From the NCBI RefSeq assembly GCF_001025135.1, contig NZ_AP012323.1, forward strand, positions 496,001 to 560,000: a stretch of DNA of 64,000 bases. The letters are read 5' to 3'. This DNA is from Bifidobacterium bifidum ATCC 29521 = JCM 1255 = DSM 20456. Its GTDB lineage: Bacteria > Actinomycetota > Actinomycetes > Actinomycetales > Bifidobacteriaceae. How positions within the stretch are numbered: position 1 is the first letter of the stretch; every line of letters begins with the position of its first letter. The notes under the pieces are model-generated. The model ran no database searches. It had not been told where the DNA came from and saw only the letters and a list, made by a program, of their open reading frames with translations. Positions 9,391 through 11,145 of this stretch are shown here, one piece after another. Position numbers and translations under genes: made by a program.

Positions 9391-9618
9391 ATGAGAGGCC
9401 TTTCCGGCCGCAAGAGCCTGCGCGAACATCGTGTGTTCGTGCGGCCGTATGACCAAGACGTGGGCCGTGTGGGTCTTCGACGTGCGTCGGTAGATGTTGT
9501 TGTTGCGCCGTCTTGCCGACTTTGCCCTGTGCCAGGCGCGGTTCTGACATGGTCGTGGGCTCGGCTGGGGTTCGCAGATGGCCGGGCGTGATTCTGGAGC
9601 GGTCTCGTCCTCGATTGT

Positions 9619-9664
9619 GTGCCACACCAGGGCGAAAATGGGTGTTTTGAGCCTAGTGTGGCAC
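9619..9664. repeat. Imperfect palindrome, copy 1 of a GTGCCA hairpin
   Basis: GTGCCACACCAGGGCGAAAA pairs imperfectly with the segment ending in AGTGTGGCAC at 9664. Sequence and loop (TGGGTG) are related to the palindrome at 9788-9833. A third GTGCCAC half lies shortly after, near 9670. Confidence 0.7.
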
Positions 9665-9787
9665 AATTTGTGCCACAGAATGAAATGTAAGCGCTTAGAA
9701 TCCATGTCGTGGCAGTTGGTTGTTTCACGATATCATTGGAAAATGGCCGAAACTGTCTGTTGTAGATAATCGATGTCGAAACCACCT

Positions 9788-9833
9788 GTGCCATACCAGG
9801 GCAAAAATAGGTGTTTTTGCCCTGGTATGGCAC
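9788..9833. repeat. Perfect 20-bp palindrome, copy 2 of a GTGCCA hairpin
   Basis: GTGCCATACCAGGGCAAAAA (9788-9807) is perfectly complementary to 9814-9833, with loop TAGGTG. No gene ends nearby, so it does not look like a simple terminator. The two copies differ in stem bases. Confidence 0.8.
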
Positions 9834-10087
9834 GCAATCCGCAACTTGTCTCATGGATCGAGATAAGAGATATCGGATACTGATTCAAGCGGTGAGTGGA
9901 ATGGTCGCGCTGTTTGAACCGCGCCTCTGAGGGCTTCATGCCGACCGGGAAATGCATCGTGACGCGGAAATCGTCATGGACTGCGAGGTATAAGGATCTC
10001 GGCCGGATGGGACCACACATACGTTAACAACGCGTCACTGTGCGTGTGCCCACGCACAGTGACGCACTTCGTGCTCAACGCACTGCC

Positions 10088-10426
10088 TGCAATTGTGGTC
10101 TCGCTGCGCGAGTCTCAATGTTTTCCTCTCTCGTCCCTGTCGGGACTCGCTCGGCGTCGCTACTCGGAAGCCCACTGGGCTTCCTCCCTACGCTCCGTCC
10201 TGCAATTGTGGTCTCGCTGCGCGAGTCTCAGTGTTTTCCTCTCTCGTCCCTGTCGGGACTCGCTCGGCGTCGCTACTCGGAAGCCCACTGGGCTTCCTCC
10301 CTACGCTCCGTCCTGCAATTGTGGTCTCGCTGCGCGAGTCTCAGTGTTTTCCTCGCTCGCGCCTGTCGGCGTTCGCTCGGCGTCGCTACTCGGAAGCCCA
10401 CTGGGCTTCCTCCCTACGCTCCGCCC
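10088..10426. repeat. Three tandem copies of a 113-bp unit
   Basis: Units start at 10088, 10201 and 10314. Copies 1 and 2 differ at one base, copy 3 at a few. Each unit contains three small hairpins; in copy 1 these are CTCGC-TGC-GCGAG (10100-10112), GTCCC-TGTC-GGGAC (10133-10146) and GGAAGCCC-ACT-GGGCTTCC (10166-10184). In copy 3 the middle hairpin reads GCGCC-TGTC-GGCGT, where two pairs have changed on both sides. The third unit overlaps the last codons of trmL. Confidence 0.95.
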
Positions 10427-11061
10427 TTGAACCCTAGTTGGCGCCAGGCTTCGTAGATGGCGATGGAGGCGCAGTTGGTGAGGTTCAGGCTGCGCAGGCT
10501 CGGGCGCATCGGCAGCCGCACCTGTTCGGCCACGTGCGGGCCGGCCATGATGTCCATCGGGTCGGGAATGTCGCCCGGCTCCGGCCCGAACAGCAGAATG
10601 TCGGTCGGCTTGTACTCGACCTCGGTATACAGTTTCGTCGCATGCGCGGTGAACGCGATGATGCGCGAATTCGGCATCGACTCGACCAGATTGTCGAAGT
10701 TCGGATGCAACACCACGTGAGCCATGTCATGATAGTCAAGCCCGGCACGACGCAGCTTGGTATCGCGAAGATTGAACCCCAGCGGCTCCACCAGATGCAG
10801 GATGGTGCCGGTCACCGCACACAGGCGAATCGCCGACCCGGTATTGCCGGGGATGCGCGGACTGTAATAGCACAGATGCGGCGTGACCGTCTCCGTCGCG
10901 GCAGCCTTCTCGGCCGACAGCATCGCGTCCACAACGCTGATCGGATTGCCGTGCGCGTCGGTCACCAGCTCGTCGGGACCATAATTCGACTTGCGGTAGC
11001 CGTACTCGAACATCTTCTCGACCTTCGCCTCGGCCTCTTCCGCACCCTTGGTTTCGCTCAT
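10414..11061 (-). CDS. trmL: tRNA (cytidine/uridine-34 2'-O)-methyltransferase, TrmL/SpoU family
   Basis: A 215-residue protein. TrmL methylates the ribose of the wobble base in certain leucine tRNAs using S-adenosylmethionine. The SPOUT-fold motifs are clear: RIPGNTGSAIRLCAVTG (motif 1), ILLFGPEPGDIP (motif 2) and SLNLTNCASIAIYEAWRQLG (motif 3 at the knot). An N-terminal extension of about 55 residues (MSETKGAEEAEAKVEKMFEY...) precedes the catalytic domain. AAGG at good spacing supports the ATG at 11061. The last residues (FKGGA) and the stop are encoded in the third 113-bp repeat, so the repeat array has reached or replaced the end of the gene. Confidence 0.88.
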   Translation of the reverse strand: MSETKGAEEAEAKVEKMFEYGYRKSNYGPDELVTDAHGNPISVVDAMLSAEKAAATETVTPHLCYYSPRIPGNTGSAIRLCAVTGTILHLVEPLGFNLRDTKLRRAGLDYHDMAHVVLHPNFDNLVESMPNSRIIAFTAHATKLYTEVEYKPTDILLFGPEPGDIPDPMDIMAGPHVAEQVRLPMRPSLRSLNLTNCASIAIYEAWRQLGFKGGA

Positions 11062-11145
11062 CATCCCGCCTTGTCTCTGCCGGTTGTCTTCGACCTTCGA
11101 GCTTAAAACAGCCCATACCCGTAACAGCTGCTCGAAGGAGAGACC

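Follow-up and report, generated by a model that had tools for sequence, protein, structure and literature searches.

The window analysed here is a stretch of 64,000 nucleotides from Bifidobacterium bifidum ATCC 29521 (contig NZ_AP012323.1, positions 496,001 to 560,000 of the forward strand), and all coordinates without a contig name are positions within it. The gene trmL, encoding a tRNA 2'-O-methyltransferase, occupies 10414-11064 on the - strand; its best NCBIfam hits are to TrmL at 146.9 and 144.9 bits, both below the curated cut-offs. The end of this gene runs into a tandem array. Tandem Repeats Finder places the array at 10086-10427 with a period of 113, 3.0 copies and 0% indels, in agreement with the original prediction of three 113-bp copies of exactly the same length. 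Scored on the - strand with the covariance model described below, the array (10086-10424) consists of three structured 113-nt units: unit 3, which adjoins trmL (10312-10424, 66.8 bits), unit 2 (10199-10311, 65.1 bits), and unit 1 (10086-10198, 67.8 bits). The trmL stop codon, read from the sequence as TAG at 10414-10416, lies within the end of unit 3, and RNA of the - strand would be the 3' region of the trmL message. In its own genome, trmL is followed by three tandem units.

Each of the three copies contains three small hairpins, also as predicted. Hairpin 1, CTCGC-TGC-GCGAG on the + strand, is embedded in conserved flanks (+ strand GCAATT..GG.CT-stem-AG.CTCA) and spans 10315-10343 with them in unit 3, with copies at 10202-10230 and 10089-10117. 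Hairpin 2, the middle hairpin, lies at 10359-10372 (copies at 10246-10259 and 10133-10146) and has the loop GACA on the - strand. Hairpin 3, GGAAGCCC-ACT-GGGCTTCC on the + strand of each copy, lies at 10392-10410 (copies at 10279-10297 and 10166-10184) and is the first hairpin after the stop codon. Copies 1 and 2 are one base apart. Copies 2 and 3 differ at seven bases, six of which fall within or beside the middle hairpin, which reads GTCCC-TGTC-GGGAC in copies 1 and 2 and GCGCC-TGTC-GGCGT in copy 3. Two stem pairs in copy 3 are altered on both sides with pairing kept, exactly as first described, and in a third, outer pair G-T replaces G-C, giving a wobble on the + strand and an A-C mismatch on the - strand. 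In simulations, two or more compensated pairs arose in 6.5e-5 of trials with seven random substitutions and in 7.9e-4 of trials with six substitutions restricted to the hairpin region. A chance origin of the compensated pairs is unlikely.

With one copy as the query, BLAST recovered just the three copies in the own genome (one contig of 2,211,039 bases), along with weak, mostly partial matches in 9 of 58 relatives, or 10 of 59 genomes when the own one is counted. Taken alone, this result would indicate a local repeat. The weak matches nonetheless disclosed a common element plan, and a box-plus-stem pattern together with a covariance model overturned the local reading. The pattern, consisting of the 5' box and the first hairpin, matches 37 of 101 Bifidobacterium genomes, own included, a count that takes in a few coding-like matches in G002, G099, G104, and G116; the reversed control matches 0 of 101. 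The covariance model (R1), built from 31 units, matches 70 of 101 genomes at E <= 0.001, own included, and finds no match in the other 31 at that threshold. Because 41 candidates were scored per genome, per-genome counts are lower bounds; they reach at least 33, with at least 8 in the own genome. At E <= 1 the own genome has at least 19 model matches. The eleven beyond the 8 are weak, two of them are opposite-strand readings of the array itself, and some may be due to chance. The element is approximately 110 nt long across the family.

The family appears to be confined to the genus. Four of 149 genomes of the order matched: the own genome, two other Bifidobacterium, and one genome of another genus, whose 26.8-bit match is taken as chance. 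Five listed genomes of other genera in the family gave no match. A strict pattern, which overlooks divergent copies, matched at least 50 stretches across 84,980 species genomes, and the 50 listed are all from Bifidobacterium. Rfam 15 has no match in the whole window at the gathering threshold; at E <= 5, window positions 9900-10600 and 8 loci gave 2 and 3 weak sub-threshold hits, respectively, none on a unit. A literature search of open-licence PMC papers found no paper on this element, and a term search of PMC5009743 was without match.

Covariation was examined in two alignments. In a MAFFT alignment of 31 units, which is not fitted to structure, 92.1% of stem cells pair versus 80.9% after shuffling, and 75 cells are doubly changed versus 23 shuffled and 6-16 slid. 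Changes on both sides occur at 13 of 23 pairs; further pair types are not raised in this alignment (23 versus 24.2 shuffled). Alignment set A2 omits L016 (coding-like), L022 (the locus of the window itself), L017 and L025 (hairpin 3 poorly delimited), and L026, L031, and L040 (without hairpin 3). The second alignment, made with the model, holds 133 distinct units among the matches listed. This analysis, like those of strand, position, and mobility below, used the best-scoring listed matches plus the earlier loci. Here, the share of paired stem cells is 96.6%, double changes number 439 versus about 104 shuffled and 13-44 slid, and both-side changes occur at 21 of 23 pairs; these figures come from an alignment that is fitted to structure and leans toward pairing, and the cells are not independent events. 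Units behind trmL illustrate the pattern. Read on the - strand, the hairpin 2 stem is ACGCC/GGCGC in the own copy 3, ACGCC/GGCGT in L210, AGGCC/GGCCT in both L229 and L233 (identical over the stretch shown), and GGCAC/GTGCC in L232, with the loop GACA in all five. The search of the genome and its relatives thus bears out the proposal that the folded form matters and that the array is not mere slippage. Covariation exceeds sequence conservation, with a fixed strand and gene context, as expected of a structured cis RNA. The best-conserved part of the element is hairpin 1 with its flanks.

The original prediction read the + strand and allowed either RNA or a cruciform. The RNA alternative stands; loops, G-U asymmetry, and position favour the - strand. 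Among the matches listed, the gene-sense strand is the more stable by predicted energy in 165 of 181 distinct units. On this strand, with loop lengths fixed, the hairpin 3 loop is NGU in 164 of 181 units and ACN in none, and the hairpin 2 tetraloop is GNNA in 139 of 181 and TNNC in none. A looser loop search finds a 5-nt loop (GAGCG) in hairpin 2 of 54 of 179 units. A simple search located hairpin 1 in 129 distinct units, and its loop, read in the gene sense, is a GNA triloop in 84 of them. Among mismatched cells, G-U occurs on the gene-sense strand only in 58 and on the other strand only in 12, with pair 13/45 excluded; 29 of the 58 fall in two hairpin 2 pairs, leaving 29 to 9 without these. 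The excluded model pair, a + strand G-U in 112 of 133 units, runs contrary to the gene-sense reading, as does the outer middle-stem pair of copy 3 (G-U on the + strand, A-C on the - strand). On balance, loop orientation, G-U asymmetry, and position in these sequences indicate that the folded form is probably RNA of the - strand. A cruciform or other DNA-level role ranks behind RNA because the strand asymmetry goes against it.

The elements hold a consistent position relative to genes. Among the matches listed, 142 of 145 arrays have an open reading frame on the hairpin 3 side, which points toward the element in 139 of the 142. The distance from its stop codon to the first hairpin, hairpin 3, has a median of 11 nt and lies between -5 and 30 nt in 129 of 139. 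Most arrays in this set are between co-directional genes (111 of 145), and 21 are between convergent genes. Also among the matches listed, 69 of 139 upstream genes resemble sugar-ABC permeases by their C-terminus, and BPD_transp_1 was present in all five permease-like upstream genes tested. Other upstream genes tested include Gnd, LepA, GatB, Ffh, isoprenyl transferase, IlvC, and EttA. The downstream genes, one tested each, include lacto-N-biose phosphorylase, SecE, HemW, and PhnW; one family precedes the lacto-N-biose phosphorylase gene. A gene can be without its element: among the 30 trmL orthologues examined, out of 61 found, 5 carry one, own included. These numbers, and the absence of a match in 31 of 101 genomes, indicate that the element is dispensable at a given gene. 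The gnd cluster, with one gnd confirmed by NCBIfam, has a unit at 10 loci in 9 other genus genomes among the matches listed. A weak unit (23.4 bits; L087 1501-1573) was also seen by eye behind gnd in the own genome.

The base of hairpin 3 frequently complements the last stretch of the preceding gene, which would allow a basal helix, P1. This relation was examined by swapping elements between gene families, using 126 of the 145 arrays. A complementary run of at least 8 occurs with the own element in 31 of 126 cases versus 28 of 1260 after swapping. The best helix near hairpin 3 has at least six pairs in 102 of 126 arrays, with 65 covering stop-codon bases and 96 reaching coding sequence; because the best helix was chosen, these counts are not themselves a test. 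Element genes compared with other genes in the same loci give 35 of 132 own versus 39 of 660 swapped, whereas the other genes have no excess (8 of 167 own versus 47 of 835 swapped).

A stricter comparison swaps elements between species within a gene family. Over 11 non-overlapping families comprising 80 arrays, complements in the own element cover 1056 gene-end nucleotides versus 860 +/- 35 when permuted, a coverage reached in 0 of 1000 permutations. The signal comes from families 0 and 3 (0 of 1000 each) and family 6 (38 of 1000). Families 1, 2, 4, 5, 9, and 10 are flat, with no own-element excess in this permutation, and in families 7 and 8 the own element pairs worse than swapped ones (974 of 1000 and 1000 of 1000). 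Own pairing therefore beats the between-species swap in 3 of 11 gene families, and 8 of 11 are without such a signal. An earlier run that included a family "P" (20 of 30 hand-chosen orthologues) gave a total of 1464 versus 1079 +/- 44, which is inflated because "P" overlaps family 0. The 11-family figures are from a repeat that drops both "P" and L143, which duplicates L142.

Permease orthologues display the codon match in detail. Among 30, an R1 match is present at 23 loci and the ten-base arm was found in 28. With P1 arms placed at the best-matching position, at least 8 positions of this arm are paired in 19 of 22 orthologues with an R1 match and in 0 of 6 without one. The first third-codon position in the helix is T-A in 14, G-C in 3, and C-G in 1, with one mispair. 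The second is A-T in 10, T-A in 3, G-C in 1, and C-G in 1, with three G-U and one mispair; the third is C-G in 10, T-A in 2, A-T in 2, and G-C in 1, with four mispairs. By eye, some permease orthologues have an extra hairpin spanning the stop codon.

In the window, trmL ends GGC GGA GCG TAG. In the elements of L229 and L233, GGCGGAGC has an exact complement. The L232 codons are GGCGGGGC and the element there has GCCCCGCC, so that a synonymous change is matched; in L210, P1 fits by eye only with a bulge. Comparison with the trmL orthologues L229, L232, and L233 places the gene arm of a putative P1 at 10418-10425, the codons GGC GGA GC(G), and its element arm, GCGACGCC on the - strand, at 10379-10386. 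The two arms would form six Watson-Crick pairs around a tandem G-A. The predicted minimum-energy fold of the array prefers pairing of the tandem units with each other and does not form P1, and P1 in the window is for this reason only inferred. At L037 and L039, 3' of gnd, inspection by eye shows that a long inverted copy of the last codons comes after them, across the stop codon, and exceeds what the basal helix requires.

Our preferred interpretation, to which we assign a probability of roughly 55%, is that the array belongs to a dispersed cis-acting mRNA 3'-end element of Bifidobacterium that may set a 3'-end or intercistronic boundary responsive to translation, comparable to REP and ERIC. 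Sequence comparison shows the family, strand, position, and covariation, and the gene-end helix in some gene families; by analogy we infer a protective or delimiting role for the 3' boundary of the upstream message. Behind the stop codon, the RNA would fold into hairpin 3, hairpin 2, often with a GNNA loop, and hairpin 1, mostly with a GNA loop, the last between its conserved flanks. Some copies would close hairpin 3 at its base through a helix that involves the gene's last codons, its stop codon, or both. Such a structure could mark the 3' boundary of the upstream message and protect it against 3' exonucleases or read-through, and this boundary would mostly separate genes of the same direction. 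A ribosome completing the gene has to open the basal helix, so the boundary may respond to translation.

A bolder extension, possible but tentative, holds that the elements are a new bacterial 3'-end RNA class that senses whether the preceding gene is translated to its end. A ribosome would open the gene-element helix; without a ribosome the helix would close, after which the downstream hairpins would alter the fate of the message, and the conserved flanks may bind a factor. If this is true, synonymous gene-end codons would be selected to keep a helix with a repeat that spread through the genus. In some families, the repeat and the last codons of its host gene co-change across species, which is direct evidence for the preservation of a fold that spans the gene end. 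Structured repeats of the dispersed kind are commonly regarded as possible parasites. Both a host role for REP/BOX/ERIC-like repeats and constraint on synonymous gene-end sites become testable questions. Since about half of the upstream genes are permease-like and one family precedes lacto-N-biose phosphorylase, the elements may also help set the transporter/enzyme balance in gut bifidobacteria.

Alternatively, the element could act mainly on translation, with structure at the last codons and stop codon slowing ribosomes and lowering or tuning output. In E. coli, REP sequences near stop codons reportedly do this. The median stop-codon pairing probability is 0.997 in 132 element genes versus 0.56 in 163 others, alongside stronger folding of element regions overall (mean energy -91.9 versus -66.7); the higher stop-codon pairing counts for the preferred boundary reading as well. 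The 11-nt median spacing of hairpin 3 and the extension of helices into coding sequence also fit an action on ribosomes. However, hairpin 1 and its flanks are the parts farthest from the stop codon and yet the best conserved, and we regard this alternative as improbable.

About equally improbable is a transcription terminator module, either non-canonical Rho-independent or Rho-assisted. Like an intrinsic terminator, the element places a GC-rich hairpin directly behind the stop codon, and a somewhat T-rich stretch follows hairpin 1: the 9 nt after it hold 4.2 T on average, with at least 5 T in 68 of 185 units (position approximate). In a B. breve transcriptome study, transcripts are reported to end at GC-rich stem-loops that are not classed as Rho-independent and have no clear consensus (PMC5746004). 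As described there, those ends fit the elements but do not identify them. In contrast to an intrinsic terminator, the element has three hairpins with conserved flanks and no U-tract directly after hairpin 3, where 0 of 185 units have at least 5 T within 9 nt; only 10 of 185 have at least 4 consecutive T at any point after hairpin 3. No terminator-like site was found within 9600-10700, and some copies lie between genes that resemble one pathway.

The mobility analysis speaks to a third alternative, in which the element is a small selfish repeat of MITE-like or BOX-like character that does nothing for the host and whose hairpins serve its own spread. Among the matches listed, a unit and its nearest relative by the hairpin 1-2 region follow the same gene family in 69 of 185 cases (6.3 expected) and come from the same genome in 18 of 185 (5.5 expected), which suggests mainly retention behind the same gene with some within-genome spread or homogenisation. 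This same-genome similarity, the many copies per genome, the tandem arrays, and the patchy presence would suit a selfish repeat. Retention behind the same gene family across species, strict orientation relative to the gene, and the match to the host gene's synonymous codons in some families do not, and we consider this explanation quite unlikely. RAYT-driven mobility of the REP kind finds no agreement in distribution: the Y1 transposase that is the RAYT signature (PF01797) is in only 4 of 101 genus genomes and absent from the own genome, whereas elements are in 70 of 101. Finally, a mutation process in which templated repair in palindromic DNA copies arm to arm, with no selection on the fold, could explain the three window copies taken alone by a single event and would accommodate the six changes clustered in one hairpin between two tandem copies, the near-perfect arms, and the inverted gene-end copies in some units, but it predicts loop flips where the loops are one-way (164 to 0 and 139 to 0), and with the G-U asymmetry and conserved flanks lowering it further we judge it very unlikely.

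Two observations concern how copies multiply. In G020, 11 of 16 pattern matches have the hairpin 1 stem CTGCC/GGCAG, not seen among the other listed matches, hinting at within-genome spread or homogenisation. A second tandem pair in the own genome (L079 1501-1755; contig 1968782-1969036) has a period of 163, and its repeat unit takes in, by eye, the end of a coding sequence. Judging from this pair, arrays may arise by duplication of a gene end together with its element.

Several known repeat families are comparable. The REP/BIME sequences of enterobacteria are short palindromic repeats behind genes, present in many copies within operons and at their ends, and as RNA their hairpins can shield the upstream message or influence ribosomes close to the stop codon. 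The Bifidobacterium element resembles them in general plan, being palindromic, many-copy, and behind genes. It differs in its three distinct hairpins, in the basal helix matched to the gene's codons in some families, and in the absence of Y1_Tnp, the RAYT signature, from 97 of 101 genus genomes. ERIC/IRU sequences are structured, co-transcribed, and about 127 bp long, with terminal inverted repeats, target-site duplication, and TA ends; in Yersinia, according to a review, they have an orientation-dependent effect on upstream mRNA with a ribosome-induced conformation change (PMC2229807). Size, structure, and a proposed effect on upstream mRNA involving ribosomes are shared. Phylum and architecture differ, and a gene-specific helix is not among the ERIC features described in that source. 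The BOX, RUP, and SPRITE repeats of pneumococcus are likewise dispersed, structured, and confined to a narrow group; some BOX elements are expressed, and the repeats are judged likely parasitic (PMC3049150). Unlike these repeats as portrayed there, the Bifidobacterium element is strictly oriented to stop codons, retained across species, and codon-matched in some families.

The sequence beside the array contains further inverted repeats. A perfect 15-bp hairpin (GCGTCACTGTGCGTG / CACGCACAGTGACGC) at 10032-10065 lies just past unit 1, downstream of the array in the trmL sense; it is possibly a transcript end or the leftover of a further unit. Two related inverted repeats, 170 bp apart, occupy 9618-9665 and 9788-9833, with TGTGCCACACCAGGGC.. 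and a perfect 20-bp GTGCCATACCAGGGCAAAAA/TTTTTGCCCTGGTATGGCAC.
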